From positions 1 to 33,189 of the IMG/VR virus record IMGVR_UViG_3300030451_004367: a stretch of DNA of 33,189 nucleotides. One strand, given 5' to 3'. This DNA comes from a virus. The notes under the pieces were generated by a model, which was not told where the DNA came from, did no database searches, and was given only the letters and a program-made list of their open reading frames with translations. The position numbers were made by a program, and so were the translations under genes. The number at the start of each line of letters is the position of its first letter. Positions within the stretch are counted from its first letter, which is position 1. Shown here in pieces: positions 298-16,897 of the stretch.

Positions 298-2713
298 AGA
301 ACAATTAATAATACAGTTAAAAGCTGAAGGAATAACAGCTACAAAAGCTCAAATAAATAATTTACATAAAACTGTAAATAAAACAGAAAAAGGCTTTGGT
401 GGTATGGCTGCTACTATTGCTACAGCTACTGTAGCTATATTTGCGGCTCAAAGAGCAATAGGATCTATTATATCTACTGGTAAAGAGTTTGAGCAATCTA
501 TGGCTAATGTAAAAGCTATATCAGGCGCATCTGGTAGAGAGTTTGATATGCTGGCTAAATCTGCTAAAAATTTAGGAGCTACAACTGTATTTACAGCCTC
601 CCAGGTAGCAGAGCTACAAACTGAATTTGCTAAATTAGGTTTTACAGCTACAGAAATTACTGGAGTTACAGAAGGTACCCTGGCGCTATCATCTGCTGTA
701 GGATCAGATCTAGCTACATCTGCGGCTGTTGCTGGTAGTACGCTCCGAGGTTTTGGATTAGATGTATCTGAAACTACAAGAGTTACAGATGTTATGGCCC
801 TATCTTTTTCAAGCTCTGCTCTGGATATGGATAAATTTGCTAATTCTATGACCTATGTAGCTCCAATAGCAAAATCTGCTGGAGTGGATATAGAAGGAAC
901 TACTGCAATTCTGGGCCAGTTAGCAAATGCTGGTATTGCTGGATCTATGGCTGGTACATCATTACGGAGAATATTATTAGAGGCTGGAAATGCTAGCTCA
1001 AAGCTTGCTAAAAGAATGGGCGGACCTATAACATCATTTGAAGATTTCCAGAGGAAATTAAAGAAATTAAAAGATGATGGATTTGATCCTATTGTAGATG
1101 GTGCTGATTTAGTTGGTAAAAGATCTGTATCAGCTTTTGAGATTATGTTAAATGGTGTAGATGCAGTAGATGCTTTAGGAGAATCATTTAATAGCGCAGG
1201 TGGAGCAGCTCAAAAAATGGCAGAGGTCCAATTAGATACGCTAGAAGGTAAGCTAAAGCTAGCTACCTCTGCTATGGATGGATTAAAGATAGAAGTATTT
1301 GAGGCTAATGAAGGGGCTATAAAACAGGCTGTAGAAGGATTTACAGCATTTATAGAAAGCCTGGATGCAGAAACAGTAAACTCATACGCTGCTGGTATAG
1401 GTGTAGCGGCTACAGCACTAGGTATATATAGTGCGGCAACTCTATTAGCAGCTTTAAGATCAATGACTTTAGCGGCAGCTTTAGCTAAAACTCCATGGGG
1501 GGTAGCAGCTGTAGCTATAAGCCTTGTAGCTGGTAAGTTGATCCATATGAGCGGAGCTTTAGAGGTAGCGGAAACAGAGCAAGAAAAGCAAGCGGAAGCA
1601 GCTTTAAAGGCTGCAAAGGCAGCTGAAGCGCAGGCTAAAGCTGTAGCTGATCTTAATAAAGAATTAGATAAACAAACTTTAAGAGAAACAACTGATCAGC
1701 TAGATAATGTATTAGGAAATTTAGGATTTGTAACTGCTGGGTATGCAGCATTCAAACAAGAATTGATAGATTTAGAAACTGCTTATAATACAAATAAAGT
1801 ACCTGAAGAAGAAGCAATAACTACCAGGAATAGGATAGCATCTTTAAAAGAAATTTTACCAATGTATGAAGCAGAGATGGATCAGTTAGAGCAAAATGCT
1901 ACAGCTATGCAAAATTATATAAATAGCGCAAATGCAGCTAGTGCAGTAGATGGTGGTGAGCCAGGTACAGGTGGAGGTAGTACTGTAAAACCTCCTACAG
2001 ATGCAGAAATAGAAGCCGCACAAACAAAATTACAGGAGTTTCATTTATCAGAAATAGAAAGTATAGAAGAACAAAATAATATAAAATTATTTTTAGAAGA
2101 AACCAGATTATTAAATGCTGCTAAAATTACAGGCGCAGGAGAAGAAACGCTAACAAAAATAACAGATTCTTTTAAGAAAAAAAGGCAGGCCAATAGAGAT
2201 AAATTTGATAAAATGGAACAGATGGCCCAGCTAAAACATCATTCTATGTTATTAGGGGGTTTAAGCTCTTTTATTGGCCAATTTGCTGGAGGGGAAAAGA
2301 TAGCTGCTAGAATACAGCAAACAAAAGCTGTTATAGATACATATTCAGCAGCTAATAAAGCTTATACAAATGCTGGAGGATTCCCTACAGGTATTATACC
2401 AGCAGCCGCATCTATAGCTTATGGTATGGGTAATGTAATGAGAATAAGCAAGTCAATAGGAGATTTTAAAGCAGCTGCTACTGGTATGGATGATGTAGTT
2501 ACAAGGCCTACAATGATTTTAGCTGGTGAGGCTGGAGCCGAACAGGTATCTATAACACCTTTAGATGGTCCAAATATAGATGGACCGCAGGGATCACAGC
2601 CAGTAAATATTACTTTTACTGGTAATGTAATGAGCCAGGATTTTATAGAAAATGAGGCTATTCCAATGATAGCGGAAGCGGTTAGGCGTGGCGCAACGCT
2701 GGGAGATGCTTAA
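284..2713 (+). CDS. Tail tape measure protein
   Basis: This 809-residue protein should set tail length and help DNA ejection. Its N-terminal half looks like the TP901-family phage tail tape measure (PhageMin_Tail): an Ala/Gly-rich helix near residues 40-65, an AQVAELQTEFAKLGFTA-type segment near 105-125, and the TLEGKLKLATSAMDGLK motif near 318-334. Hydrophobic helices lie around 370-420, followed by an Ala/Lys/Glu-rich coiled coil (about 430-470) and a glycine-rich linker near 555. The C-terminus ends in a short beta-rich tail. At about 0.15 nm per residue the tail would be near 120 nm. The start ATG overlaps the chaperone extension, and the stop overlaps the next start (TAATG). Size, position and motifs make the call firm. 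Confidence 0.93.
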   Translation: MAISKEQLIIQLKAEGITATKAQINNLHKTVNKTEKGFGGMAATIATATVAIFAAQRAIGSIISTGKEFEQSMANVKAISGASGREFDMLAKSAKNLGATTVFTASQVAELQTEFAKLGFTATEITGVTEGTLALSSAVGSDLATSAAVAGSTLRGFGLDVSETTRVTDVMALSFSSSALDMDKFANSMTYVAPIAKSAGVDIEGTTAILGQLANAGIAGSMAGTSLRRILLEAGNASSKLAKRMGGPITSFEDFQRKLKKLKDDGFDPIVDGADLVGKRSVSAFEIMLNGVDAVDALGESFNSAGGAAQKMAEVQLDTLEGKLKLATSAMDGLKIEVFEANEGAIKQAVEGFTAFIESLDAETVNSYAAGIGVAATALGIYSAATLLAALRSMTLAAALAKTPWGVAAVAISLVAGKLIHMSGALEVAETEQEKQAEAALKAAKAAEAQAKAVADLNKELDKQTLRETTDQLDNVLGNLGFVTAGYAAFKQELIDLETAYNTNKVPEEEAITTRNRIASLKEILPMYEAEMDQLEQNATAMQNYINSANAASAVDGGEPGTGGGSTVKPPTDAEIEAAQTKLQEFHLSEIESIEEQNNIKLFLEETRLLNAAKITGAGEETLTKITDSFKKKRQANRDKFDKMEQMAQLKHHSMLLGGLSSFIGQFAGGEKIAARIQQTKAVIDTYSAANKAYTNAGGFPTGIIPAAASIAYGMGNVMRISKSIGDFKAAATGMDDVVTRPTMILAGEAGAEQVSITPLDGPNIDGPQGSQPVNITFTGNVMSQDFIENEAIPMIAEAVRRGATLGDA

Positions 2714-5700
2714 TGTCTTTTGAAAATGATACACAGGGCAAAAATACTCATTTATATCCAATAGTTACTATTGAGCCACCTAATACTCCAACAACATGGC
2801 CAAATCATTATCCTGATGTTATACACCTTTCAACAAATAGCGTATCTTTAGATCATATACATCTACCAAATACTGGTTTTCCTGATCTTATTAGGCAAGT
2901 GCATTTTAAGCCATTATTGTTAAATATTCCATCTATAAAAGAGTCAATAAATGTAGAATCAAGAAAGTTTAAAATTTCTAATGTAAGGCTAGATATATCA
3001 AATTACGAATATAATGGAGAAAGATTTTCTGATAAATTAGCTGATACTAGTCTATTAAACTGGAAGTGTAGCGTACAATTTGTTTCTCCAACAGCAAATA
3101 AATTTTCTACTATATTTAGTGTAGATGATTATGCAACTAAAGAATCTTTTTATGATCATTATATAGAAACTGGATTTGCTCCACAAATGACTAAAATGAT
3201 ATACCAGGGAGTAATCAGAAGAATATCGCATGATGATACAAAGGTATCTATACAGCTAGAAGATCTAACAGAGCAAAAAATTCACAAACTATTACCACAA
3301 CAATCTGTAGGATCAACAGAAGGAATACCAGATAAATATAAAAATAAACCTATTCCAATGGTATATGGGCGTGTTTCTAGGAGTCCAGTAGTTATGCCTA
3401 GCTTTGAAGATTTAACTATTGATTATAAAGATATTGAAGGATTAGTTGAAAGCTCAAACCATGATATTTTTACTGATCAAAATGTTGATTCTATGTATAT
3501 TGCAGTAGATAATGGCTATGTAAACTTACCTAAAACAATAGAGAAACAAATATTAGGATCTCCATTTAATATTAGTATAATTGATTCAGATCAAATAGAT
3601 GATTATAATTTAGAAGATCAATGGGAAGAAAATGTAGATGATAAAAAAGTTAAATTAAATCATACAAAATTATTTAGCAGAGGTGGATTACAGGTTAAAT
3701 CATTTTTAAAACCATCTACACCTAGTTTAATGAAATCAAGTTATGAAAGTGGATTTGATGATACTAATTTGTTAGAGTATGCTTCTAATCAGGACCTACA
3801 AACTCTAGTAGATGGTGATTTAAATACAGAAATCCCAATAGAGGTATCTAATTATATAGATAATTCTGATTTTGGTGAGTTTTTTGAGTATGTATCAGGC
3901 CAAAGAGATTCATTTTTTGTAATTTCAATAAATGCACCTCCAATTAATGATTTAGAAAAAGCTGATAATTTAATTGTTGCTTTAAATAATAAAGTTTTAC
4001 CAGAACCTTACGGATCATTACATAGAGATCCAGCGATAACAGGCTCTGATGGATCAGATACGACAGGTATTACATTTTTTGTTTTAAGTATTACAGCCTA
4101 TGGAGGTACTAATAGTGAACACGTTATTACAGAGGATATTAGTAATGATGGTACTGGAGATATAACAACATATGCGGATACGTCAATAACCTATAATGAT
4201 CTATTTATATTTAATTCAGGTGATATAAATAGTGTAGCAGATTTAAGTGATCCATCTAAAAATCCTAATGGTGCAACAATAGCATTTAAAACAGGATCAA
4301 CATTTATAGATAATGCGCAAATTATGTTTTGTAATAATGGATCTACTTTTGAAATAGTATTCTTTTCTCAACTAGGGCCTAATGTTACCAATGAAACAAT
4401 ACCAGGATTTCTTGATGCTAGATTCCAGGAATTAGATATGGTATTTTTAGCTGATATAAAAAATCCATTAGATAAAGATTTTTATGCAGATGTAAAAGGA
4501 AGGGTAAATACGTTTGATGATAATCCCTTTTATTATGCTGAATATTTAATACAAAATCCAGTAGAAATTATTTATGATATATTGAGGAGTGAACTTGGTT
4601 TAACTAATAAGCAAATAGATATTGATGATTTCACAAAAGCAAGGCTACAGCATCTTCATTACCAATTTTCTTTTACTATAAACAAAAAAACTGATTCTAA
4701 AAAATTAATAGAAGATATAGCTAAAAGCACAAAATGTTTTCCATATTTTGCTAATGATGGTAGGTTTAGATTTAATTCTATACAGGATAGTTATGGCGTT
4801 TCATCTACTTATGATAGCAATAAAACCAGGTTAATTAATGTTTCTGATGTTATAAAATATTCATTTAACAAAACAAAGCCAGAACAAATATATAAAAAAG
4901 TAACTGTAAATTATCATCATGATTATTCACAAGACTCTCTTTTAAGCTCTGTTTCTAATGATCTTGGTCCAGATGAGTTTTATAATATTACAGATTCAAA
5001 TGATGCTCATTTAGAATTTGATTGTAAGTATATTAGGAATGAAAATAATACTGATACAGAAAATAATCTTTTAAATTTTTTACTTAATCAATATAGAAAC
5101 GATCATTTATTGCTAAAGATCAAACTACCTTTAAAATATATGGATCTTGAGGTAGGTGGTATTATTAAGCTTCGTGAGCTATTGGGTGGAATTACTGCTT
5201 ATGGGATAGATTATAGATTAATACAGAATCCAACTGGAGAAATAGATCCAGATGGATCTACAGTTGGCGGCCAGTATTATTATCCATTATTTTTTATAAC
5301 ATCAATACAGAAAAAAATAGATTCTGTTGAAATTGAATGTATGCAGTTGCATCATTTAACAGAGAATAGTGATGTAGATCAAGCATGGTTTGATTTTGAG
5401 GATAAATTTAATTTTCCAGATTCTGTTGGTATAATTCCAGAACCTCCAGATGATTTTATACCAGTATATACTACTAATTTAAATGTAGATTTAACACCTA
5501 TAATGATCAATATATTAAATGATGACTATCCAGTAGAACAAGGACCTTTACAAGGTGCATCTTTTCAGCTTCCAGAAGCTACTGCTAGCATTACTTATGT
5601 AAATCCAGTAGGAGATACTGTAGAGGCAAATTTGCCAGATGGTGTTACTGTAAGTGTAGATCAAGTTGAGTGCATAAATCCTTCTTCTATTTTTCATCAA

Positions 5701-6438
5701 ACTACATACTCTGCTGGAACAAATGTAGATTTTATTGATGATAATGGAGTTGATTATATATTTAGATATAAAACTAAATTTAATAATTTAGTAGATTCAA
5801 GCTTTGATATTTATTATACAGAGCAAACAGCAGATGTTATTGTAACTTTTAATCATATAACAGACAATCCACCATCATTCTATATAGCGGCAGTTTGGGG
5901 TTCAGATGCAGATTTAGTTTTTGAAGGAAGCGATATAACACATACTATATTTATCCAAGATCAGCAAGAAAATTATTATGAAAAATATTTATATGAAGAT
6001 AGCCCTGATAGGCAAATTAGGATTGTACCAAATGATGATAATGATCCAAATCCTACAGTTTTTTATGGCGCTGATATATCTCAACAAAATGGAGGGTTTT
6101 TCAGTAATTCATTACCATTTTATGATTTACCAGATTTAACAACAGCAGGCGAATATGAGGTATGTTGTGCTGTACAGGATAATATCGGACAATGGTCTTT
6201 TTTAAGGCATTGGACGGTAGTAGTATTTGATCCAGATGCACCAGTTACTCAAGCTGGAGATGCAAATAGTGATGGAGTAGTTAATATTTTAGATGTTGTA
6301 ATAGCTGTAAATTATGTACTAGCTGAAAATCCATATGATCCAACTGGTGAGCTTTTCGATACTATAGATATGAATCAAGATGGCGCAGTAAATGTATTAG
6401 ATGTTGTGCAGATAGTTAATATAGTTTTATATGGATAA
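2713..6438 (+). CDS. Tail tip/baseplate hub protein with C-terminal dockerin-like domain
   Basis: At 1241 residues this is the largest protein in the window, and it directly follows the tape measure in the place of a distal tail or host-specificity protein (gpJ-like). A central region near 620-700 (FTINKKTDSKKLIEDIAKST, then CFPYFANDGRFRF) resembles the conserved fold of siphovirus tail-tip proteins. The C-terminal third is Asp/Pro-rich and beta-like, probably receptor-facing. The last 61 residues (about 1181-1241) contain two EF-like calcium loops, GDANSDGVVNILDVV and DMNQDGAVNVLDVV, the hallmark of a type I dockerin. Dockerins bind cohesins in cellulosomes and also occur widely as C-terminal modules of secreted proteins; I know of none that is standard in phage tails. 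The tail-tip role is probable; the dockerin match is strong by eye. Confidence 0.8.
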   Translation: MSFENDTQGKNTHLYPIVTIEPPNTPTTWPNHYPDVIHLSTNSVSLDHIHLPNTGFPDLIRQVHFKPLLLNIPSIKESINVESRKFKISNVRLDISNYEYNGERFSDKLADTSLLNWKCSVQFVSPTANKFSTIFSVDDYATKESFYDHYIETGFAPQMTKMIYQGVIRRISHDDTKVSIQLEDLTEQKIHKLLPQQSVGSTEGIPDKYKNKPIPMVYGRVSRSPVVMPSFEDLTIDYKDIEGLVESSNHDIFTDQNVDSMYIAVDNGYVNLPKTIEKQILGSPFNISIIDSDQIDDYNLEDQWEENVDDKKVKLNHTKLFSRGGLQVKSFLKPSTPSLMKSSYESGFDDTNLLEYASNQDLQTLVDGDLNTEIPIEVSNYIDNSDFGEFFEYVSGQRDSFFVISINAPPINDLEKADNLIVALNNKVLPEPYGSLHRDPAITGSDGSDTTGITFFVLSITAYGGTNSEHVITEDISNDGTGDITTYADTSITYNDLFIFNSGDINSVADLSDPSKNPNGATIAFKTGSTFIDNAQIMFCNNGSTFEIVFFSQLGPNVTNETIPGFLDARFQELDMVFLADIKNPLDKDFYADVKGRVNTFDDNPFYYAEYLIQNPVEIIYDILRSELGLTNKQIDIDDFTKARLQHLHYQFSFTINKKTDSKKLIEDIAKSTKCFPYFANDGRFRFNSIQDSYGVSSTYDSNKTRLINVSDVIKYSFNKTKPEQIYKKVTVNYHHDYSQDSLLSSVSNDLGPDEFYNITDSNDAHLEFDCKYIRNENNTDTENNLLNFLLNQYRNDHLLLKIKLPLKYMDLEVGGIIKLRELLGGITAYGIDYRLIQNPTGEIDPDGSTVGGQYYYPLFFITSIQKKIDSVEIECMQLHHLTENSDVDQAWFDFEDKFNFPDSVGIIPEPPDDFIPVYTTNLNVDLTPIMINILNDDYPVEQGPLQGASFQLPEATASITYVNPVGDTVEANLPDGVTVSVDQVECINPSSIFHQTTYSAGTNVDFIDDNGVDYIFRYKTKFNNLVDSSFDIYYTEQTADVIVTFNHITDNPPSFYIAAVWGSDADLVFEGSDITHTIFIQDQQENYYEKYLYEDSPDRQIRIVPNDDNDPNPTVFYGADISQQNGGFFSNSLPFYDLPDLTTAGEYEVCCAVQDNIGQWSFLRHWTVVVFDPDAPVTQAGDANSDGVVNILDVVIAVNYVLAENPYDPTGELFDTIDMNQDGAVNVLDVVQIVNIVLYG

Positions 6439-7110: not shown

Positions 7111-8228
7111 TGGCTTATCAAAATGTTGGCAGCAGGCCTAGATTTTATGTGGATTGGAATACTTATTTTAATGCTTTAGGGTTATACACAGGAACTGCCC
7201 TACATAATTCTAACGGTGATGGAAAAGGATCTTATATGGGTATGGGTATGTTAAACCCAACAAATCAAAGATTTTTAGAACCAAATTCATCAGCTGTTTC
7301 TGGTGGCGCTAGCATCAGATATAATTCAGATAATTGGGTATTAGATCCTGAACAGGTAAACTGGGCAGGTGTACTTGGCCACAACCTAAAAACTGTAGAT
7401 TCTTCATATTATTTTTCTTTAGGTGTAGATGTAGGTACAACTGATTTACATTATCCAGCTTTTAATGCTATTAATGATATTGTAAATTCAAATTATGAAT
7501 CAGAAATTGTGAGAAAGCCACAATTTGATGGCTTTAGCCTTGTAGAGCTTAATGGCACAAATGCTACTTATACAATAGATCCATCAAAAATTAGAAAAAA
7601 TCATTTAGCTTTTTCTGGCATATCTTCAGCAAATGTAGGCGAACAGTTTAAGTTTGGATCATGGTGTATAGGTAATTATTATGATATATCTTCTCCAGAT
7701 TTAAATGTATCTTTAGAGTATCAATATGATGGCATCAAGACTAGCCAGAGCGCTGGAGGAGCCTCTTTAACTAATACTTTATATACAGGCCCTGCAAAAT
7801 GGGGAGATTATGGTCCATGGCAACTAGGTGGCGTAGATTCTTTTAGAACTGGCAGGAGAGTATGGACCTTAAATTGGTCCTTCCTGGCTGATACAGAGAT
7901 ATTTCCTATTAATGCTAATACATCTTATCAAGCTGAAACAACTGATGGATATGGTGATAATTTTACACAAACAGAAACTGCGGATGGTGTTTCTTTAGAC
8001 TTTACATCTAATATACTATCAGGAACAGATTTTTTTAGTAGTGTTTGGAACAGAACAGCAGGATCAGGAAATTTACCATTTATCTTTAATCCTGATGGTG
8101 GAGGTGATACGCCAAATAATAATCCAGATCAATTTGCGATCTGTAGGTTCGATATGAAAAGTTTAAAAATTACTCAAAAAATGCACAGAAAATATTCTGT
8201 AAGTTTAAAAATAAAAGAATGTTGGTAA
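7110..8228 (+). CDS. Putative tail/fibre structural protein
   Basis: A 372-residue protein starting in a TAATG overlap with the previous gene and preceded by GGAGGAGG. It is aromatic- and Asn-rich (many Tyr, Trp, Phe), with blocks such as DPEQVNWAGVLGHNLKT near 84-100 and a C-terminal RRVWTLNWSFLADTEIF segment near 248-264, and it looks all-beta. The final ~35 residues turn basic (KSLKITQKMHRKYSVSLKIK). It is the last large gene of the late operon, so I infer a virion protein at the tail tip or a fibre. No specific family recognised. Confidence 0.6.
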   Translation: MAYQNVGSRPRFYVDWNTYFNALGLYTGTALHNSNGDGKGSYMGMGMLNPTNQRFLEPNSSAVSGGASIRYNSDNWVLDPEQVNWAGVLGHNLKTVDSSYYFSLGVDVGTTDLHYPAFNAINDIVNSNYESEIVRKPQFDGFSLVELNGTNATYTIDPSKIRKNHLAFSGISSANVGEQFKFGSWCIGNYYDISSPDLNVSLEYQYDGIKTSQSAGGASLTNTLYTGPAKWGDYGPWQLGGVDSFRTGRRVWTLNWSFLADTEIFPINANTSYQAETTDGYGDNFTQTETADGVSLDFTSNILSGTDFFSSVWNRTAGSGNLPFIFNPDGGGDTPNNNPDQFAICRFDMKSLKITQKMHRKYSVSLKIKECW

Positions 8229-8229
8229 T

Positions 8230-8466
8230 ATGGATAGTAAAGATATAAGCTTATTATTAGCAGAGATCAGTACAGAAATAGCATCAATAAAAGCTGATGT
8301 TGGCTATATAAAAGAAAGAATAATCCGAAATGAGGATTATGTTCACCATGTAAATAAAAGACTCCAAAAAGCAGAAAATACGCTCTCATTTGTTAAAGGT
8401 GCCATGTGGATATTCCTAGCTGTATGGTCCGTTGTTTTAGCAATCTCTACGCTAACAGGGCAATAG
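8230..8466 (+). CDS. XhlA-like single-span membrane protein (possible holin)
   Basis: A 78-residue protein with an N-terminal helical, coiled-coil-like half (ISTEIASIKADVGYIKERI) and a C-terminal membrane helix (about 55-75, AMWIFLAVWSVVLAISTL). This order, an Ile/Lys heptad region followed by one membrane span, is typical of the hemolysin XhlA family and related phage holin accessory proteins. It is the last gene before a strong terminator, at the end of the late operon where lysis genes often sit. The endolysin, however, lies far away at 24931. It could instead be a membrane-anchored structural accessory. Confidence 0.55.
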   Translation: MDSKDISLLLAEISTEIASIKADVGYIKERIIRNEDYVHHVNKRLQKAENTLSFVKGAMWIFLAVWSVVLAISTLTGQ

Positions 8467-8486
8467 TCAAAGCCCTCTCCTGATAA

Positions 8487-8520
8487 AAAGCCCTGGCTTT
8501 ATAGCGGCCAGGGCTTTCTT
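8487..8520. terminator. Bidirectional intrinsic terminator between convergent genes
   Basis: A perfect 11-bp stem (AAAGCCCTGGC at 8487-8497 with GCCAGGGCTTT at 8507-8517) encloses a 9-nt loop and is followed on the plus strand by a T-rich tail. The minus-strand copy also has a T tail (complement of the A-run at 8485-8489). It lies between the stop of the late operon and the stop of the minus-strand gene ending at 8547, and should stop transcription from both sides. Confidence 0.9.
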
Positions 8521-8546
8521 CTTGTTACCTCCTCTAGTTTATAGAT

Positions 8547-8849
8547 TTATCTCCAATTTTTAGAGTTTGCAGATACAATTTTATAAGCATCTATTATTTC
8601 TTTAGCCCATATATCCAGCTTCTTTAATAAAGCTCCTTCATTTTCTTCCAATACATCCATTAAGAAATTTAACTCTGTGAAGCTATTAGAGCCTTTAACT
8701 CGTATTGGGGCAATACTGTTTACAGATACAGTATAATAATTTTTATCTTGGCCCCCTTGTATGATTACCTCGACATCCATCCAGCCACCATGATCTAAAT
8801 CTGGGGCGCTTATTGATTTGTAAACTACCTTATCGTATTCTATTTTCAC
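8547..8849 (-). CDS. Hypothetical protein under phage promoter P_L1
   Basis: A protein of about 100 residues of unknown function. I place the start at the GTG at 8849 because AAAGGAG lies 5 nt upstream. An upstream in-frame GTG at 8885 sits at the probable transcription start and would add 12 residues (see findings). The protein is soluble, predicted strands first (IEYDKVVYKSISAPDL, WMDVEVIIQGG) and helix later (NFLMDVLEENEGALLKKLDIWAKEIIDAYKI). It is the only gene of a leftward unit, expressed from its own early-type promoter and divergent from the replication operon. Its position suggests an early host-interaction or regulatory role, but nothing in the sequence proves it. Confidence 0.75.
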   Translation of the reverse strand: MKIEYDKVVYKSISAPDLDHGGWMDVEVIIQGGQDKNYYTVSVNSIAPIRVKGSNSFTELNFLMDVLEENEGALLKKLDIWAKEIIDAYKIVSANSKNWR

Positions 8850-8878
8850 TTTTACTCCTTTATTGTTTTTATTAATAC

Positions 8879-8921
8879 CAATCACGAAACAAATATACAG
8901 CTATTTTATAATACCAGCAAA
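8879..8921 (-). promoter_or_regulatory. Promoter P_L1 (leftward)
   Basis: On the minus strand: TTTG (8921-8918), a 20-nt spacer, TATATTTG (8897-8890), 4 nt, then GTGATTG (8885-8879). The two boxes match the Bacteroidota consensus TTTG / TAnnTTTG exactly. A long A/T tract upstream (8922-8966) may act as an UP-like element shared with the divergent P_R1. It drives the gene at 8547-8849. Confidence 0.75.
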
Positions 8922-8967
8922 TAAAAAAATAATAAAAATAAAAAATTTAAAAAAAATAAAAAAAGTC

Positions 8968-9010
8968 TTTGTTGGTATTTGCTAGACTCCCTATATTACC
9001 TATGTGATTG
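8968..9010 (+). promoter_or_regulatory. Promoter P_R1 (rightward, early/replication operon)
   Basis: TTTG (8968-8971), a 20-nt spacer, TATATTAC (8992-8999), 4 nt, then GTGATTG (9004-9010). Same architecture and spacing as P_L1, P_R2 and, nearly, P_L2. It is the only clear promoter ahead of the long operon from 9043 to 15727. About 46 bp of almost pure A/T separates its -33 box from that of P_L1. Confidence 0.75.
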
Positions 9011-9042
9011 AGAGAGTAACTAATAACAACAACGGAGAAAAA

Positions 9043-9180
9043 ATGGATCAAGAGATTTTAGATATATATTGTGAGCATTGTTTAGATGGTGCGGATGAAT
9101 TAGTTTTAGCAGTTGATCATCCTAGGTTTGTTGGCCTATGCCAAAGCTGCTGCGATTATTGTGAGAAGGAGGTAGAGTAA
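9043..9180 (+). CDS. Cys-rich zinc-finger-like microprotein
   Basis: A 45-residue ORF starting at ATG 9043 after ACGGAG. Six cysteines are arranged CEHC (10-13) and CQSCCDYC (33-40), consistent with a treble-clef or ribbon zinc site. It is the first gene of the P_R1 operon, with a TAATG overlap to the next gene. An in-frame GTG at 9004, at the promoter's probable transcription start, would give a 58-residue form. Acidic overall. Function unknown. Confidence 0.75.
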   Translation: MDQEILDIYCEHCLDGADELVLAVDHPRFVGLCQSCCDYCEKEVE

Positions 9181-9512
9181 TGAAAAAACAAAACTTTAAA
9201 AACTCAATAGGTGAGCAGTTAATTAAAAATGATGGTTTAAGATTTATGTATGGTGATACTATTACAACTGTAGGGCATCAAGGATGTATTTCTAATATGA
9301 TTGATATAGAATATAATCATGTATTTTATGGAGAAGGTGTTGAGAGAATCAGATTGAAAAATGTTCCTGAAACATGGAAACTCTTAAAATGGTTTGTAGA
9401 TAATAAAGAGTATGAAGCATATAGTAAAAGTATAGATTGGGATGGTAATGAGGAAATTTCAAAACTTGAAGATACAATTGCTTATAAACATAGATTTGAA
9501 GGGGTGGCATAA
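9180..9512 (+). CDS. Hypothetical early protein
   Basis: A 110-residue soluble protein whose start overlaps the upstream stop (TAATG) and is preceded by GAAGGAGG. Mixed alpha/beta composition, with an N-terminal basic segment, a central beta-like part (GDTITTVGHQGCISNMIDIEY) and a helical C-terminal half. No metal motif or membrane segment, and no family recognised. It sits in an operon of small early proteins, a usual place for host-takeover functions. Confidence 0.75.
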   Translation: MKKQNFKNSIGEQLIKNDGLRFMYGDTITTVGHQGCISNMIDIEYNHVFYGEGVERIRLKNVPETWKLLKWFVDNKEYEAYSKSIDWDGNEEISKLEDTIAYKHRFEGVA

Positions 9513-9520
9513 GCCACCTC
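9501..9520 (+). other. Intercistronic hairpin with stop codon in the loop
   Basis: GGGGTGGC (9501-9508) and GCCACCTC (9513-9520) form an 8-bp stem with one G-U pair around the 4-nt loop ATAA. The TAA stop of the upstream gene (9510-9512) lies in the loop. No T-run follows, so it is not an intrinsic terminator. It could stabilise or process the mRNA or tune expression of the next gene, whose AAGGAG follows closely. Confidence 0.6.
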
Positions 9521-9538
9521 AAGAAAGGAGTTAGTGTA

Positions 9539-9793
9539 ATGGTAACTTATATTGAAAAAAATAATGGTTCATTTATTACAGAGTTGCCTGCACATGAGTA
9601 TAATATTGATATTGATAAAGGATTAGCTTGGGAAGGAAATATTTTAGTAAGTACAAATCCTGATATAAAAATTATGTATAATGAAAGAAGAATTTGGAAA
9701 GAAAAAATCCAAGGTGTTGGCAGGAATGAAAAATGTGTTTGCGGTTCAGGTAAGAAATTTAAAAAATGCTGTATAAATAAGGAGGTCTTGTAA
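9539..9793 (+). CDS. Small SEC-C motif protein
   Basis: An 84-residue protein with a C-terminal SEC-C zinc motif, GRNEKCVCGSGKKFKKCC (61-78), using C66, C68, C77 and C78. SEC-C motifs occur at the C-terminus of SecA, where they bind SecB and ribosomes, and as add-ons in many small or nuclease-associated proteins. The N-terminal 60 residues are beta-like and not recognised. A good AAGGAG precedes the ATG, and the next gene starts in the TAATG overlap. The motif is certain by eye; the function in the phage is not. Confidence 0.85.
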   Translation: MVTYIEKNNGSFITELPAHEYNIDIDKGLAWEGNILVSTNPDIKIMYNERRIWKEKIQGVGRNEKCVCGSGKKFKKCCINKEVL

Positions 9794-10113
9794 TGGCCAT
9801 AAAATCAGTTTTCTATAATACTAATGGTGAGAAATATCCAGATCTCCATAGGTCCTGGAGCCAGGCTAAAACCCAGGATGAGTATATTTATTTGATCTTC
9901 CAGGATAATGATGATAGATCTCTATCTCGTGATGATGTTGAGAAGATCTGTAAGCAGGCTAATAAGAATTGGCCCATCTCTAGTATATGCAGAGCTATTA
10001 ATACCCTGGTAAATAATGATCTGCTGGTTAAATCTAATACCTCCAGGGTAGGGCAGTTTGGTAAGAAGCAAAACTGCTGGAGGCTTAAAACTAATGAAAT
10101 TAGCTTATTTTAG
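9793..10113 (+). CDS. Winged-helix DNA-binding protein (putative)
   Basis: A 106-residue protein with the look of a compact winged helix. Residues ~40-105 run SLSRDDVEKICKQ (helix), PISSICRAINTLVNNDLLV (turn plus recognition helix) and a basic wing VKSNTSRVGQFGKKQNCWRL. Such proteins usually act as small transcription regulators or strand-binding adaptors. It is in the early operon between the SEC-C protein and a membrane microprotein and could regulate the four shared-type promoters. The DNA-binding call rests on pattern only. Confidence 0.65.
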   Translation: MAIKSVFYNTNGEKYPDLHRSWSQAKTQDEYIYLIFQDNDDRSLSRDDVEKICKQANKNWPISSICRAINTLVNNDLLVKSNTSRVGQFGKKQNCWRLKTNEISLF

Positions 10114-10122
10114 GAGTATTTT

Positions 10123-10260
10123 ATGTTAGATCTATATATGTATTGGACTTCAGAATTAAGGTTGTTTATGGTCCAGGAAACGCTCATGTTTGCGCTTGTA
10201 TGTTTTGGCTTTGGTGTAATGTGCCAATGGTTATTGGAAAGATTAACAGATGGCGCATGA
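10123..10260 (+). CDS. Single-span membrane microprotein
   Basis: A 45-residue ORF with TAGGAG upstream of ATG 10123. An amphipathic N-terminus is followed by one membrane helix (about 20-38, ETLMFALVCFGFGVMCQWLL). It overlaps the next gene by 11 bp. Function unknown; early phage membrane microproteins often modulate host envelope processes, which I can only suggest here. Confidence 0.65.
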   Translation: MLDLYMYWTSELRLFMVQETLMFALVCFGFGVMCQWLLERLTDGA

Positions 10261-10444
10261 GAGGCCAAAATGTTTTTATTGTGGCCATGATGCTATATGG
10301 GGTGGTGATCATATGATGGATGAATGTGGAATAGAGGATGTAGAAGGTATGGTATGTAATTGGGGATGCGCTAATAATGATTGTGCTGTTTCTATTATAT
10401 ACTATCATTTAGTAGATGAGATAAAAGAGGATAAAAATGGCTAA
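10250..10444 (+). CDS. Zinc-finger microprotein
   Basis: A 64-residue acidic protein with Cys at 8, 11, 26, 36, 40 and 45 (KCFYCGHDAIWGGDH and CNWGCANNDC). The first CxxC with flanking His looks like one knuckle of a zinc ribbon. It overlaps both neighbours (11 bp upstream, 8 bp downstream), so it is probably translationally coupled. Similar small Cys-rich proteins are common and unnamed in phages. Confidence 0.7.
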   Translation: MAHERPKCFYCGHDAIWGGDHMMDECGIEDVEGMVCNWGCANNDCAVSIIYYHLVDEIKEDKNG

Positions 10445-10652
10445 ATTTGAAGATGTGCGGATAGTGATCCAGAAAAACAAAAAATGTTCTGTATGTAGAG
10501 GTATAGGTAGTATTGGATCTACAGAATACTTTGATGGATCATATGAATATGATTGTAGTAAATGTTCTGGATCAGGATCTGTAATAGTTAATAGAAGGAT
10601 TAGTATAGAGCAATTAGCTTTAATGATAAAAGAGGTAAACAATGAAAGTTAA
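10437..10652 (+). CDS. DnaJ-type zinc-finger microprotein
   Basis: A 71-residue protein containing two CxxCxGxG repeats, CSVCRGIG (17-24) and CSKCSGSG (40-47), about 23 residues apart. This is one zinc centre of the DnaJ cysteine-rich domain without the J domain. In phages and plants, J-less versions bind substrates or partners; here it may act as a small chaperone or an RNA/protein adaptor. AGAGG precedes the start. The C-terminal helix (RRISIEQLALMIKEV) could be a dimerisation or partner-binding segment. Confidence 0.75.
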   Translation: MAKFEDVRIVIQKNKKCSVCRGIGSIGSTEYFDGSYEYDCSKCSGSGSVIVNRRISIEQLALMIKEVNNES

Positions 10653-10839
10653 AAAGAAATTATTCCAGCAGCTTAATTTTAGGGTGCCGATAGGACTATG
10701 GCAAAGATTCGAGATGATCTGGTTAGAAGAAAAAAATAAAACTGAAGATAAAAAGGTTTTAAAAGCAGATCTTCAGGTAGAAATATTTAAAAAGGGGTTA
10801 GAGAATTGGAAAAAGAAAGCCAGATTCCTGGGAAGATAA
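10642..10839 (+). CDS. Small basic protein, possible ribbon-helix-helix
   Basis: A 65-residue Lys-rich protein. The segment QLNFRVPIGLWQRFEMIWLE (10-29) resembles the strand-helix start of ribbon-helix-helix DNA-binding proteins, and the second helix could be ADLQVEIFKKGLENWKK. AAGAGG precedes the ATG. It overlaps the upstream gene by 11 bp and the nuclease gene by 34 bp. A DNA-binding role is a weak inference. Confidence 0.6.
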   Translation: MKVKKKLFQQLNFRVPIGLWQRFEMIWLEEKNKTEDKKVLKADLQVEIFKKGLENWKKKARFLGR

Positions 10840-11708
10840 AAAGCTTGCTAGAGCCAGCTTGCCAGATAGCTAGATTGGATACTGGTAATGGTAGAGTATA
10901 TTATGATATAGCTGCTGCCAATGAGAGTTTAAGGCATTATTTTTATGGAGTTACTAGTGTATTAGATGGAGCTTTAGCTAAAGGTTATGGCTATAACAAA
11001 TGGCTAGGAGATTCTCTCTCATACTCTCATGCTTTAGATTATGCTATGGAAAAAGCAGATGCAGGCACTTTGGTCCATGCTATAATTGATGATCTAAATG
11101 CAGGGATTACAGTAGATACAGATGCTGGATGGTATAACGAAAGAAAAGATAAAACTGTACCAATTACAGATCTAAATAAAACTATGGTAGAAGCTTATAT
11201 AAAATTTTACCAGGAAAATAGCGTAGATATTGTAGCTAGTGAGATAACATTATATAATCCAAAAAGGTATAAAAATAGGCATCAGGAAGGATATAGATAC
11301 CCTTTTGCAGGTACAGCGGATATAGTTTGTAAAATACCAGATAAAAAGGGTAATTTACGATTAGCTATAGTAGATGTTAAAACTGGTAATGAGTACCCAA
11401 AAAGCCATGAACTACAGCTAACAGCATATAAAATACTATATGATAGTTTACATGGATCAGCATTTGGAGATATTGATGATCTATACTGTCTATATCTAAA
11501 AAAAACTGGTAATTATAAGTTAGTTAAATATAATTATCAGCCAGAGGTATGGTATATGGTATATGATCTATTTAATTATATGATTAGTAATAAACTTGGT
11601 AAAATGCCAGTAATAAAAGAGAAAAAACAAAAGCCCAGGTATTACAGCCTGGATCAATCAGGAGAAAAAACAGATGGATCAAACAACAGAAAAGAAACCG
11701 CTATTTAA
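10806..11708 (+). CDS. PD-(D/E)XK nuclease, RecB/Cas4-like exonuclease
   Basis: A 300-residue predicted nuclease for phage recombination or DNA end-processing. Visible motifs: H91 in GTLVHAIIDD, the GTAD segment (169-172), the catalytic VDVKTG (189-194, D190 and K192), and the QLTAY motif (Q204, Y208) that follows in the RecB family. The start is TTG at 10806, the first in-frame start after the upstream stop that has a ribosome site (AAAGGGG, 8 nt upstream). The start lies within the preceding gene, and its end overlaps the SSB gene by 35 bp. A nuclease paired with an SSB resembles phage recombination modules, although no annealase is recognised. Confidence 0.85.
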   Translation: MEKESQIPGKIKSLLEPACQIARLDTGNGRVYYDIAAANESLRHYFYGVTSVLDGALAKGYGYNKWLGDSLSYSHALDYAMEKADAGTLVHAIIDDLNAGITVDTDAGWYNERKDKTVPITDLNKTMVEAYIKFYQENSVDIVASEITLYNPKRYKNRHQEGYRYPFAGTADIVCKIPDKKGNLRLAIVDVKTGNEYPKSHELQLTAYKILYDSLHGSAFGDIDDLYCLYLKKTGNYKLVKYNYQPEVWYMVYDLFNYMISNKLGKMPVIKEKKQKPRYYSLDQSGEKTDGSNNRKETAI

Positions 11709-12207
11709 GCCACAGCAAACATTAAACACGCCTAGGCTTGTAACGCTTGAGGGAGCAGAGCCTTTTTATAGTAAAGAGGATCAATATGGTAAAATGAACT
11801 ATGGCTATAATGTAGTAGTAGATGGCCAGAGTATGACCTGGTTTTGTAGTGAGTCGGTTAATAAACTTATCAAAGCCGCATTTATAAAACAAGGTGAGGA
11901 GTTTAGTATAGAGTTTAAATCTGGAACAAATCAAAAAACAAATCAGCCATATAAGATCTGGTTATTAAATGGTAAAAATTTAAATGATCTGATGCAGGAA
12001 GCAAAGGTAACACAAAATCCTGCACCTGGACCAATGAAGGCAGCGGATCCAGTAGCTACACCTAGCTCTGATCAAATAGCGCCACAAAGCGCATCAGGTA
12101 TAAAGGATGCAGAAAAACTTGAGATCTTATGGAATGATTTCAAAGAAAGGAATCCAGATAAAGTACTACCTGAAGCTATTATTAATGATGAGGATATACC
12201 CTTCTAA
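11674..12207 (+). CDS. Single-stranded DNA-binding protein (putative)
   Basis: A 177-residue protein. Residues ~15-110 are beta-rich and look like an OB fold (PRLVTLEGAEPFYSKED, YGYNVVVDGQSMTWFCSES). Residues ~115-145 form a Pro/Ala/Ser-rich linker, and the protein ends in NDEDIPF. An acidic tip ending in DIPF or DDIPF is the hallmark of bacterial-type SSBs, where it recruits host replication and repair proteins. The gene directly follows and overlaps a RecB-like nuclease and has AGGAG before the ATG. The OB fold is only inferred, but the tail plus context makes SSB likely. Confidence 0.78.
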   Translation: MDQTTEKKPLFKPQQTLNTPRLVTLEGAEPFYSKEDQYGKMNYGYNVVVDGQSMTWFCSESVNKLIKAAFIKQGEEFSIEFKSGTNQKTNQPYKIWLLNGKNLNDLMQEAKVTQNPAPGPMKAADPVATPSSDQIAPQSASGIKDAEKLEILWNDFKERNPDKVLPEAIINDEDIPF

Positions 12208-12458
12208 TGTTAAGCCTAGCTAGTGATACCTACCAGGCCTCCTGGCCTAGACTCCGTAGTTGCTATCAATCACAACTAGCTAGGCTATTATTTTGCCTGG
12301 GCCTTCATAGATCTACAGAAAAAAGTGATGCTGTTGGATCTAGTGAGGATGGAGGTCCAGGACAAAAGCCTAGTGATAAAAAAATAGATTTTAAAAGATG
12401 CGATCATCCATATAGAGCATATGGATCTGTTTGTGTTATTTGCGGAGATGTAAGATGA
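12207..12458 (+). CDS. Zinc-finger microprotein with structured 5' coding region
   Basis: An 83-residue ORF in a TAATG overlap with the SSB gene. The C-terminal ~25 residues carry a C-x-H...CxxC site (C65, H67, C76, C79 in RCDHPYRAYGSVCVICGD). The N-terminal 40 residues (Trp/Arg/Leu-rich) are unlike the other proteins and are encoded by DNA that forms a long inverted repeat. No other in-frame start exists before the zinc finger. Either the hairpin controls translation of this gene or the 5' part serves as a DNA/RNA element that happens to be translated. Confidence 0.6.
   Translation: MLSLASDTYQASWPRLRSCYQSQLARLLFCLGLHRSTEKSDAVGSSEDGGPGQKPSDKKIDFKRCDHPYRAYGSVCVICGDVR
12213..12286. repeat. Long inverted repeat with nested hairpin
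   Basis: AGCCTAGCTAGT (12213-12224) is the exact reverse complement of ACTAGCTAGGCT (12275-12286). Inside lies a second hairpin, AGGCC-TCCT-GGCCT (12235-12248). The whole 74-bp block begins right after the SSB stop, is more GC-rich than its surroundings and has no T tail. Possible roles are an mRNA structural element, a protein-binding site or part of a replication origin. Confidence 0.65.
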
Positions 12459-12619
12459 GTATATTGTTTGATGGGCTATATAATATAGTTTCTATATTAT
12501 GTGCAATAATTTTTTTTGTAGGTATGTTTACTTGCGCTATTGCTGTATATGGAATAGTAAATGAAGCTACTAAATATTTAAAAAGAAATGCCTATAAAGA
12601 AGAAACCCTGGATAACTGA
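12455..12619 (+). CDS. Single-span membrane microprotein
   Basis: A 54-residue protein. I choose ATG 12455, which overlaps the upstream TGA (ATGA), over the ATG at 12431, which would lie inside the previous gene without a reason. One long membrane helix spans about residues 8-36 (NIVSILCAIIFFVGMFTCAI), followed by a charged C-terminal tail (KYLKRNAYKEETLDN). Unknown function. Confidence 0.6.
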   Translation: MSILFDGLYNIVSILCAIIFFVGMFTCAIAVYGIVNEATKYLKRNAYKEETLDN

Positions 12620-12791
12620 AAGGGAAATGGCAGCCTTTGAAAAACCACCATTTAAGCCTAGTGTTAAATGTAATGATTGTGATAACTGGGCTAATAGAAT
12701 AGTTGCATTTATAAAGTTTGATCCAGTTAAAGTTTGTGATGATTGTTATTTTAAGTATTACCAAAAATTTGTAAAGAGGACCTATAGATAA
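12588..12791 (+). CDS. Zinc-ribbon microprotein
   Basis: A 67-residue basic protein with CNDC (28-31) and CDDC (50-53), a classic two-knuckle zinc ribbon with a 19-residue spacer. It overlaps the upstream membrane gene by 32 bp and the downstream gene by 3 bp (TAATG). It may bind nucleic acid given its Lys/Arg-rich ends (PIKKKPW, KFVKRTYR), but no family was recognised. Confidence 0.7.
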   Translation: MPIKKKPWITEREMAAFEKPPFKPSVKCNDCDNWANRIVAFIKFDPVKVCDDCYFKYYQKFVKRTYR

Positions 12792-12919
12792 TGGAAATTT
12801 TATTTTATATGCTAGTATGGTTCTTTTTATCAATAATCCCATTTGTGATATGGGCGGCAGCTGTTGAGCTGTTTAGATATATAATGAATAAGTTAAGGAG
12901 TAAAGATGGCCAGGAATAG
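12791..12919 (+). CDS. Single-span membrane microprotein
   Basis: A 42-residue ORF starting in a TAATG overlap and ending 14 bp inside the replication gene. Nearly the whole N-terminal half is a membrane helix (residues 3-28, containing LVWFFLSIIPFVIWAAAV), followed by a basic tail (RYIMNKLRSKDGQE). Too short for homology by eye; supported by overlaps on both sides and composition. Confidence 0.5.
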   Translation: MEILFYMLVWFFLSIIPFVIWAAAVELFRYIMNKLRSKDGQE

Positions 12920-13883
12920 AATGATAAAAAAAGAATTTTGGACTAGTGAGCAGATCATGAATTTGCCAATAGGAGCTAGATTATTATTTATTGGTATGTG
13001 GAATCAGGCAGATGATGAAGGTATTTTAAAAAACTCTCCAATGCAGTTAAAAGCGCAGATATTTCCCTGCGATATGGAAATAGATCTAGCTAAAATAAAG
13101 TATTATATAGATCTAATTAAAGCTGAAAATCTTATTATTTATAATCAAAAAACTGAAGCAGAGGATCAAAACCTGATCAAAATTAAAAAATGGTGCGATC
13201 ATCAAAAGATCAGCAAGCCAACACCTAGTAAGTATAACTTTATAGAGGAGGATCAGGAACACTCCAGGAGGACTCCAGGAGTAGTTAAGGAGGACTCCTC
13301 CCCAAAGGAAAGTAAAGTAATAGAAAATAAAGTAAAAGAAAGTAAAGTAAAGAAAACTAAAACAAACAAAAGCGGTATGAGTGATATTTTTCTTAAATGG
13401 TGGAAAACATACAACAAAGATAGTTACAGAGAAAAAGCCTGGAACAAGTGGAAAGCATTAAAAGAATCTGATCATGAGATTGTATTGAACCATACAAAGA
13501 GGTTTGTATTAGTAACAGAAAAACAATTTAGACCAGATGGTTTTAGATACCTGGCTAATAAAACTTATTTAAATGAAATTATTGATACAGGACCTGATAA
13601 AACAACTGATTTAAAAGCAGAGGAAAAGCATAAGCGAATCCTGGAGCGCCAGCGAGAGGAGGAGCGGAAAGCTAGGGAAGCTTATGAAGCTGATCCAGTA
13701 GGTGAAGATGAATCTATAGCTGATCTTATAGGTCTACCAAAGAAATCTAATATAGCTGTAGCGCCAGAGGATAGCCCTAAAAGCTCGAAAAAGATAGCAA
13801 GCCTTACCAGCTTACATAAAGAAGATAAAAGTAGCAGTAAAGGATCATTTAAGAGCCTAGGGAGCATAATAGGAAATGAATAA
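12906..13883 (+). CDS. Replication initiator / replisome organiser (lambda O-like architecture)
   Basis: A 325-residue protein. The N-terminal ~100 residues (RMIKKEFWTSEQIMNLPIGA, RLLFIGMWNQADDEG, LKAQIFPCD) match the winged-helix N-domain of phage replisome organisers. A Lys/Ser/Glu-rich linker (~115-155) follows, then a helical domain with WWKTYNKDSYREKAWNKWK (~164-182) typical of the C-part of such proteins. The last ~100 residues are charged and disordered. AAGGAG precedes ATG 12906. The linker is encoded by tandem DNA repeats, so the origin may lie within the gene as in lambda O. No helicase or loader is present, so it probably recruits the host helicase. Confidence 0.75.
   Translation: MARNRMIKKEFWTSEQIMNLPIGARLLFIGMWNQADDEGILKNSPMQLKAQIFPCDMEIDLAKIKYYIDLIKAENLIIYNQKTEAEDQNLIKIKKWCDHQKISKPTPSKYNFIEEDQEHSRRTPGVVKEDSSPKESKVIENKVKESKVKKTKTNKSGMSDIFLKWWKTYNKDSYREKAWNKWKALKESDHEIVLNHTKRFVLVTEKQFRPDGFRYLANKTYLNEIIDTGPDKTTDLKAEEKHKRILERQREEERKAREAYEADPVGEDESIADLIGLPKKSNIAVAPEDSPKSSKKIASLTSLHKEDKSSSKGSFKSLGSIIGNE
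13261..13350. repeat. Candidate replication origin: repeats inside the initiator gene
   Basis: Left part: ACTCCAGGAG twice (13261-13270, 13272-13281) and GGAGGACTCC twice (13267-13276, 13289-13298), the second extending to the palindrome GGAGGACTCCTCC. Right part: three AT-rich copies of GAAAGTAAAGTAA at 13308, 13323 (one mismatch) and 13338, exactly 15 bp apart, encoding an E-S/N-K-V-x pentapeptide repeat. A GC-rich structured block beside AT-rich iterons within an initiator gene resembles lambda-type origins. Confidence 0.55.
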
Positions 13884-14331
13884 GCTATATATAGGTATAG
13901 ATCCAGGTAAATCAGGTGGCATAGCAATTATATATCATGATAACTTATATTGTATCAAATGCCCTGCTACAGTACATGATATGGTAGAGGAAATACAGAT
14001 ACCTTTAGATATGATGGATGTGCCTAGATCTAAAGCTGTTATAGAATTTGTACACAGTATGCCAGGGCAAGGTGTTAAGTCTATGTTTACATTTGGCCAA
14101 AACTATGGAACCTGGCTAGGCATCTTGGCGGCTCTAAAGATACCATATGATATAGTAGCTCCAGGCAAATGGATGAAACATTTTGGATCAATGCCTAAAG
14201 ATAAAAAAGATAGAAAGAATAAGCTAAAGCAGTTGGCCCAGCAAGCGTATCCAGATCAGCGTGTAACATTAGCTACAGCGGATGCTATATTGATGGCTAT
14301 ATATGCCAGGGATAAAGATAGTGAAGGCTAG
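13876..14331 (+). CDS. RuvC-like Holliday junction resolvase
   Basis: A 151-residue RNase H-fold nuclease that should cut branched DNA before packaging. The N-terminus carries the RuvC signature YIGIDPGKSGGIA (D9 catalytic), then the second acidic residue E57 in AVIEFVH, a conserved FGQNYGTWLGIL helix, and the C-terminal acidic site in TLATADAILMA (D136), preceded by a Lys-rich KDKKDRKNK stretch. Length and motif order fit phage RuvC-like resolvases. It overlaps the initiator gene by 8 bp and lies just upstream of the terminase small subunit. Confidence 0.88.
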   Translation: MNKLYIGIDPGKSGGIAIIYHDNLYCIKCPATVHDMVEEIQIPLDMMDVPRSKAVIEFVHSMPGQGVKSMFTFGQNYGTWLGILAALKIPYDIVAPGKWMKHFGSMPKDKKDRKNKLKQLAQQAYPDQRVTLATADAILMAIYARDKDSEG

Positions 14332-14574
14332 GTTAGATCTGGAAAAACAAACTCCCCAGCGGCTTACATTTAGGGGTGATCTATACACCACAATATGTAG
14401 TATATTAAAAGTTTACATAAAACCAATTATCAGAAAAAGGGGTAATGGCATACTATATATAGGGGTAATGAAAGGGGTAAAAGGTTTGCGATCCACCGAG
14501 GGGGAGGGGGGATCTGTATCTGCTGGTGCGGAGTTCACCTTACGAGAAAATTTAAAATATAAAGGGGTAATTTA
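14332..14574 (+). other. G-tract-rich region before terS: candidate packaging (cos/pac) site
   Basis: About 240 bp with little coding evidence. On the plus strand it holds seven G-tracts of four or more: 14373-14376, 14439-14442, 14462-14465, 14474-14477, 14500-14504, 14506-14511 and 14564-14567. Most sit in the repeat AGGGGT(A/G)AT. The block around 14485-14515 is strikingly GC-rich for this genome. Terminase recognition sites often lie at or before terS, so this is the best candidate for the packaging site. The GGGGTAAT form also serves as a ribosome site elsewhere in this phage. Confidence 0.45.
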
Positions 14575-14575
14575 A
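14468..14575 (+). CDS. Doubtful small ORF upstream of terS
   Basis: A 35-residue ORF starting at ATG 14468, preceded closely by AGGGGTA, with its TAA overlapping the terS ATG (TAATG), the coupling seen at many real junctions here. The frame is open further upstream to 14303, but that start lies inside the resolvase gene without a ribosome site. The peptide (VKGLRSTEGEGGSVSAGAEF) has no recognised motif, and its central part is dictated by the G-rich block. It may be a packaging site that happens to be open. Confidence 0.3.
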   Translation: MKGVKGLRSTEGEGGSVSAGAEFTLRENLKYKGVI

Positions 14576-15288
14576 TGAGCAGATTACCAGCTGAAAAATC
14601 AGCGCTGAAAAAAAGAATATTAATAGATATAGTTGCTATGGATCCAGGCGTAACTAATCAATTTTTAGCTAGGGAATTAAAAGTTAAAAATGAAACAATA
14701 GCTAGCTGGCGTAATGATCCAAAGATGATAGAGGCGGTATATGATAGATATATGGAGCTAGCTGGAAAAGAGTTACCTTTAGTAGTTGGCGCATTACTAG
14801 AAGAAGCAAAGCTTGGAAATGTTAGGGCCGCAGAATTAGTCCTAAAGCATTTTGGTAAATTACAAGATACGTTAGTAGTAAAAGTAGAAGCTCCATTTAT
14901 GCAGCATCTGAAAGCTGCGAAAATTGATCATATAGAAGATGCAGAGATTGTAGAAGATCTAGGACCTGAAGCGATCGGAGAGTCTATAAAATTATCCCAG
15001 GAAATTTTAGCAAAGCTACCGCCTAGAGATAAAACAAATGATCATCCTAGCATTAAAAATACTATAGATAATAAAAGAGTTAAAGCTATAGACTCTGAAA
15101 TCCTTAAAAGAAAAAAGAGCCAGGAAAAAGCCAAATATGAGCGCAAGAAATTAAATAAAAAAGCTAAAGCTTTAGGGCTTGAACCAATGCCTGGAGGCCG
15201 CCCATCAAAATCTGAAAGAGATGCCTGGCTTAAAAAACTAAAAAAGCTTGAGGCCGAGAAAATAGAAAAAAATAAAAACAAGGGGTAA
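14575..15288 (+). CDS. terS: Terminase small subunit
   Basis: A 237-residue DNA-recognition subunit of the packaging motor. An N-terminal helix-turn-helix is clear (residues ~20-50: VTNQFLARELKVKNETIASW, then RNDPKMIEAVYDRYM). It continues into the helical segment typical of small terminases (ELPLVVGALLEEAKLGNVRA, AELVLKHFGKL). The C-terminal 80 residues are Lys/Glu-rich and charged, probably contacting TerL or DNA. Ribosome site AAAGGGG. Unusually, the gene lies about 7 kb from terL (22843) and on the opposite strand. Confidence 0.8.
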   Translation: MSRLPAEKSALKKRILIDIVAMDPGVTNQFLARELKVKNETIASWRNDPKMIEAVYDRYMELAGKELPLVVGALLEEAKLGNVRAAELVLKHFGKLQDTLVVKVEAPFMQHLKAAKIDHIEDAEIVEDLGPEAIGESIKLSQEILAKLPPRDKTNDHPSIKNTIDNKRVKAIDSEILKRKKSQEKAKYERKKLNKKAKALGLEPMPGGRPSKSERDAWLKKLKKLEAEKIEKNKNKG

Positions 15289-15289
15289 T

Positions 15290-15727
15290 ATGAAAAATAT
15301 AACTGATAAAGAAATAGCAAAGCTTCAGAAGGATCGAAATGCTAAAACTAGAATTATGAGAGATAGAGCTGTTTATGTGATCAGCTTGCTGGCATTACCT
15401 AGCATATTATTAATGGTAGCTAGTTTAATATTTTCAGCTAAAACTCTGGGAGATAGTCAGCTGGCAGTAATATCTGGATTAGTATCATCTGTAACTGTTG
15501 GGCTAATTACATTATTACAAAGAGCTACAGGAGGCGCAGAAAAAGAAGATCCAATGGTAGTTATAGCTAAAGAGTTAGTAAGACATTTAACAGATAACCA
15601 GGGATCCAAAGAAATCATTATGGATAAAAATAGTATTCGTATAAATGGGAGTGATTCTAAAATAGTTACTAGTAGTGATAAAGATTTGATCTGGGGAGAT
15701 GATGATCCTAAAGATCTAAAAAAATAA
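15290..15727 (+). CDS. Two-span membrane protein, possible holin
   Basis: A 145-residue protein with a charged N-terminus, two hydrophobic helices (about 28-50, VYVISLLALPSILLMVASLI; about 57-76, LAVISGLVSSVTVGLITLL) and a ~65-residue soluble acidic tail. Class II holins have two spans, but their tails are usually shorter. It is the last gene of the replication/terS operon, just before a strong terminator, with AAGGGGTAAT before the ATG. It could also be a membrane protein of superinfection exclusion. Topology is clear; function is a guess. Confidence 0.6.
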   Translation: MKNITDKEIAKLQKDRNAKTRIMRDRAVYVISLLALPSILLMVASLIFSAKTLGDSQLAVISGLVSSVTVGLITLLQRATGGAEKEDPMVVIAKELVRHLTDNQGSKEIIMDKNSIRINGSDSKIVTSSDKDLIWGDDDPKDLKK

Positions 15728-15734
15728 ATTATAG

Positions 15735-16701: not shown

Positions 16702-16733
16702 TTTTTTCTCCGTATTTTGTTTTAAGTAAGTAT

Positions 16734-16865: not shown

Positions 16866-16897
16866 ATAGTTATTTAACAAAAACAAGGAGTAATAAA

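Follow-up and report, generated by a model that had tools for sequence, protein, structure and literature searches.

What is a phage doing when it places the same seven bases, GTGATTG, at the predicted transcript start of four promoters? The window analysed here is the whole 33,189-base stretch of one virus record; it encodes a tape measure protein, a large terminase, a portal and a major capsid protein, so that a siphovirus fits, and its marine setting is our reading from where its relatives come from. Among the cultured phages of the searched collection, positions 8001-24000 had zero DNA matches, the promoter module DNA had a single weak, A/T-rich match, protein similarity was distant only, and the portal had no counterpart. 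A prophage search of genome contigs, made to find a host, gave no match, nor did Rfam and tRNA scans. Relatives were gathered through the terminase and all are virus contigs, with terminase identities to the window of 85-87% (G001 and G003), 69% (G015) and 57% (G008). G002 is almost the same sequence as G003, and G015, G026, G032 and G035 (32-38 kb) have much gene content in common.

Four cassettes carry one invariant heptamer

An earlier note on this DNA had described four promoter-leader cassettes, and all four are present where it placed them. P_L1 (8879-8920, minus strand) has a -35 box TTGCTG (8915-8920), a -10 box TATATT (8892-8897) and GTGATTG at 8879-8885, with a predicted +1 at 8885; P_R1 (8969-9010, plus strand) has TTGTTG (8969-8974), TATATT (8992-8997) and GTGATTG (9004-9010; predicted +1 9004). 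P_L2 (16734-16777, minus strand) combines a weak -35 in a TTAG region with TATATT (16747-16752) and GTGATTG (16734-16740; predicted +1 16740), and P_R2 (16824-16865, plus strand) has TTGCAG (16824-16829), TAAATT (16847-16852) and GTGATTG (16859-16865; predicted +1 16859).

Scanning the whole window recovered TANATT-N6-GTGATTG four times, compared with none in 100 dinucleotide shuffles. Bare GTGATTG is not enriched (six copies against 2.9 expected), its remaining copies (12267-12273 and 16178-16184, both minus strand) lie without promoter boxes, and the composite count drops to background once two mismatches are tolerated, so the signal is the exact composite. When the four cassettes were aligned without gaps from -45 to +30, 24 of 75 columns were invariant and the longest invariant run was exactly GTGATTG (P 0.009, column shuffling); outside it, pairs of cassettes agree at only 28-41 of 68 positions.

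The note had read the upstream part as TTTG, 20 nt and TAnATTnn. A sigma70-like pair, TTGnnn-N17-TAnATT, fits better: it describes P_L1, P_R1 and P_R2, with P_L2 weak at -35, and it puts the predicted +1 seven bases after the -10 box, at the G of GTGATTG. The spacing falls within the 16-18 nt of sigma70 promoters, and an A/T-rich UP region lies upstream of the -35. The 21 nt once assigned to P_L2 comes from its -35, which is weak and displaced; an indel is not the cause, since the modules align gap-free between their GTGs. Generic sigma70 scans of this A/T-rich window did not rise above background, so the case for promoters rests on repetition and conservation. Nothing supported a host consensus of a special kind; taken together with the strong Shine-Dalgarno sites downstream, the boxes look like ordinary sigma70-type promoters. 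Two other readings were tried and dropped: by inspection, a CRP-like site (TGTGA) was missing a suitably spaced partner half-site, and a promoter for a phage single-subunit RNA polymerase found no such polymerase among the family matches obtained.

Each cassette continues into a leader that ends in an AAGGAG or CGGAG-type Shine-Dalgarno site. The P_L1 leader (8849-8885, minus strand; AGGAG at 8855-8859) reaches the GTG start of a 100-aa gene (8547-8849), and that of P_L2 (16701-16740, minus strand; CGGAG at 16708-16712) the start of an LPD29 gene (16099-16701). On the plus strand, the P_R1 leader (9004-9043; CGGAG at 9033-9037) leads to an ATG at 9043 and the P_R2 leader (16859-16898; AAGGAG at 16885-16890) to an ATG at 16898.

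The divergent pairs are inverted duplicates

The region 8849-9043 matches 16702-16893 on the minus strand nearly end to end (BLAST, 72%, E 5e-22), so that P_R1 pairs with P_L2 and P_L1 with P_R2. The two divergent pairs are thus inverted duplicates, with zero indels across the 119 bp from GTG to GTG. The BLAST match and this gap-free alignment bear out the claim that a regulatory module had been duplicated. The module is not confined to this phage: cassettes also occur in relatives. From GTG to GTG, G003 again has 119, and G001, which lacks one base before the GTG, has 118.

Between the promoters of each pair lies an uninterrupted A/T block. That between P_L1 and P_R1 (8919-8964) is 46 nt, UP-element-like and the longest A/T-only run in the window, and that between P_L2 and P_R2 (16780-16819), at 40 nt, is the second longest; the third is 23 nt. 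The two longest A/T-only runs of G001 and of G003 likewise fall inside cassettes. Overall, we consider it highly likely that these are two divergent sigma70-type promoter modules related by inverted duplication.

By inspection, cassettes seem shuffled in position among relatives (G001 7350-8627 and G003 8539-8995, against window 16740-16859). The window's P_R2 promoter is closest to cassette G003a, which faces the opposite way relative to its neighbours, and their likeness despite orientation suggests that movement or recombination may involve the cassette as a whole.

The heptamer is kept in close relatives and replaced in others

We built a profile from the window cassettes only, with positions +1 to +7 masked, and its top ranks were taken up by exactly the three cassettes of G001 and the three of G003. 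All six, retrieved blind to those positions, carry GTGATTG; the base that cassette G001a lacks shifts its match by one position. In a leave-one-out version of the profile, three of the four window cassettes were the best non-training match, and P_L2 ranked low, in accord with its weak -35. Collection-wide pattern scans, after filtering, gave no cassettes beyond contigs already known.

These results bear on one alternative, that the cassettes are recent copies and that the motif is merely undiverged and functionless. The modules are plainly duplicates, but agreement outside the motif has fallen to the level given above while the motif is intact in all four cassettes, and in every G001 and G003 cassette that the masked profile returned; we regard this explanation as very unlikely.

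More distant relatives carry other sequences at this place. G008 has GTGATTATG at two promoters with the register unchanged; three G015 promoters of like layout, of which two lie close to where the second module sits, have TTATGAGAAA in place of the tag; and G026 has TGTCAATTAA at two promoters of like layout. The G015 and G026 tags were found by eye and pairwise comparison, so we regard an apparent tag swap as having good support in G015 and as suggestive in G026, and few genomes stand behind a family-wide swap. Conservation under the masked profile, together with the replacement in G015, indicates a motif that is lineage-specific and constrained at the nucleotide level.

G008 has two further peculiarities. 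At 11430-11700 and 16990-20110 it carries promoters whose -10 is overlapped by repeats of a TTGTTATnn block, together with a second +1 variant, TTATAGGTTATGATG; these differ from the window's spacers. Its contig ends (about 238-2933 and 36744-39442) hold diverged copies of one tail-side gene block, reflecting either a two-strain assembly or a real duplication.

The putative promoters open non-structural units

P_R1 opens an operon with exonuclease, replication initiation and resolvase genes and P_L2 the LPD29 gene, whereas P_L1 and P_R2 open the 100-aa gene and a 104-aa gene, both small and of unknown function. All four transcription units carry non-structural genes, a content that suggests early timing, whereas the late operons are without the motif and the late divergent region near 22790-22870 holds no GTGATTG copy; the composite motif is restricted to promoters of non-structural units.

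Could the A/T-rich divergent regions instead be replication origins, with GTGATTG as the initiator's binding site? The A/T-only runs of 40-46 nt and a replication initiation gene lying between the two modules speak for this. Each arm, however, has a single motif copy and no iterons, the motif follows promoter boxes and is attached to ribosome-binding leaders, and G001 and G003 each also have it at one non-divergent promoter, which together leave this idea barely credible.

Several features of the surrounding genes deserve mention in their own right. A terminator-like hairpin (8487-8517; 12-pair stem, seven G-C pairs) separates the tail operon from the convergent P_L1 gene, and a scan for terminator-type hairpins gave a total not above background. 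Tiny genes of the P_R1 operon (9043-9180, 10250-10444, 10437-10652 and 12588-12791) encode paired Cys motifs resembling zinc ribbons, a high number for one operon. In the tail region, a 1241-aa protein (2713-6438) ends in a C-terminal dockerin type I domain (Pfam E 1.3e-8), which is unusual in a phage tail protein. Near-perfect palindromes whose sequence depends on the lineage (AATATACTATnnATAGTATATT, TTACACAAnATnTTGTGTAA and others; G026 1736-1853, also in G024 and G031; G035 14755-14897; G006 7313-7402; G014 20468-20573) lie in the late divergent region, which separates the terminase from the capsid-side operon, and are possibly late-gene operators.

An operator, an RNA signal or a start codon

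The note had offered GTGATTG as an operator or an initial-transcript signal. What holds of this is that the predicted transcript start carries a signal at the nucleotide level, which fits both its conservation in close relatives and its replacement elsewhere; between functions, we rank an operator first, an initial-transcript or RNA signal second and a 5'-terminal start codon third. The tag surpasses the promoter boxes in conservation, sits at +1, recurs across the promoters of one genome and is different in a relative, and a recognition site for a phage factor is the best explanation of that combination.

Our tentative model, which we favour over each alternative while giving it slightly less than even odds, is an early module with a GTGATTG operator for a predicted phage regulator. 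Two strong host-type sigma70 promoters would stand back to back over a common A/T-only UP-element block, with RNA most likely starting at the G of GTGATTG; as the divergent pair is present twice, inverted, four putative early units would start from one type of cassette. GTGATTG, at +1 to +7, would be a recognition element that is asymmetric, specific to the lineage and most likely an operator; a predicted regulator encoded by the phage would use it to shut down or tune the four presumably active early promoters jointly. Against an operator, GTGATTG lacks dyad symmetry and each promoter has just one copy, an uncommon arrangement for the site of a dimeric repressor.

Rather than a DNA operator, GTGATTG might be a signal in the initially transcribed region or 5'-end RNA, acting in start-site choice or promoter escape or marking early mRNA for an RNA-binding or stability factor. 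It lies entirely within the predicted transcript, from +1 on, and in G015 the block common to the cassettes extends over a large part of the leader. If it served start-site choice or escape alone, however, there would be no need for it to differ between lineages of like layout, and leaders mostly lack a stable fold and had no Rfam match, so we think this possible but unlikely.

The position of the GTG raises a third idea, in which it is a 5'-terminal (leaderless) start codon and ribosomes translate the leader as far as the main start with its Shine-Dalgarno site, or on into it. Early mRNAs would then begin GTG-ATT-G (ATG-AGA-AA in another lineage), a leaderless entry built by the promoter that feeds a Shine-Dalgarno start. 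In 14 of 15 cassettes, drawn from three lineages, the RTG lies a multiple of three nucleotides from the main start (four in the window, two of three in G001, three in G003, two in G008 and, with ATG, three in G015), so that all four window leaders and both G008 cassettes are in register, and 12 of the 15 have an open frame, compared with about six expected from dinucleotide shuffles. Taking GTGATTG cassettes only, the GTG is in frame in nine of ten and the frame open in seven, and by inspection a start codon at a like position in G026 opens a short frame ending at the main start. Cassettes within a lineage are related, however, so these counts are not independent, and the hypothesis arose post hoc from the same data. 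An in-frame stop interrupts G001c and G003c, and G001a does not keep the register, which makes the leaderless frame not general and keeps it a rival only. The encoded peptide is not conserved, while codon 2 (ATT) is invariant down to its third base, pointing to constraint on nucleotides, and no start codon occupies that place in G032, G006 or G012. We therefore judge leaderless entry improbable; if true, it would tie transcription start to translation across all early units, which would be unusual.

Candidates for the regulator

Under the preferred operator reading a cognate reader should exist, and our search found no cognate phage repressor and, among the proteins scanned, no match to an integrase or repressor family; two small candidates gained no support. 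A 65-aa protein (10642-10839) was considered by eye as a ribbon-helix-helix reader, but its presumed contact residues do not change in step with the motif: G003 and G015 both have Q-x-N-x-S with different motifs, and the window and G003 have the same motif yet an R/S difference. Neither Pfam nor a low-confidence AlphaFold model supported the fold. The other, a winged-helix-like 106-aa protein (9793-10113), was set aside with a low-confidence model only (pLDDT 55).

Relation to known systems

Repeated early promoters are already known, and the +1 tag swap is the new part. Early promoters of T4 belong to a UP/-35/TGn/-10 class used by host sigma70 (PMC2988021), and the window resembles them in its repeated strong host-type promoters, A/T-rich UP elements, association with early genes and extra conserved positions beyond -35 and -10 (PMC2988021). 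Unlike T4, it has only four promoters, as two back-to-back pairs from one inverted duplication; these lack TGn and bear a 7-nt tag at +1 that is invariant among them and different in some relatives.

In cluster A mycobacteriophages (L5, TipsytheTRex) the repressor binds as a monomer, so an operator need not be palindromic (PMC9283540, PMC6550527). Their operators and stoperators are likewise asymmetric, oriented, repeated short elements whose consensus differs by subcluster, and a site of this kind with a lineage-specific consensus is what we find here. Cluster A sites, however, are 13 bp, number about 20-30 per genome, lie mostly away from promoters and have a known repressor, whereas the window's tag is 7 nt, marks only promoters and has no repressor found; stoperator-type sites outside promoters were not seen, the two extra GTGATTG copies being at about chance level. 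Start-associated sequences of cluster K are also phage-specific oriented repeats before non-structural genes, with function unproven (PMC3203893), but these 13-bp elements sit 3-7 bp ahead of start codons (PMC3203893), in contrast to a tag 36-39 nt upstream of the start codon, at the predicted transcript start. In a small literature search, we found no description of an inverted duplication of a divergent pair combined with a +1 tag that differs by lineage.

A cis-element marking every putative early promoter gives a handle on early-gene coordination in uncultured phages, and a tag that changes with lineage offers a route to the matching regulator. That related viruses keep the layout, some with another tag, hints at a virus-specific control switch.
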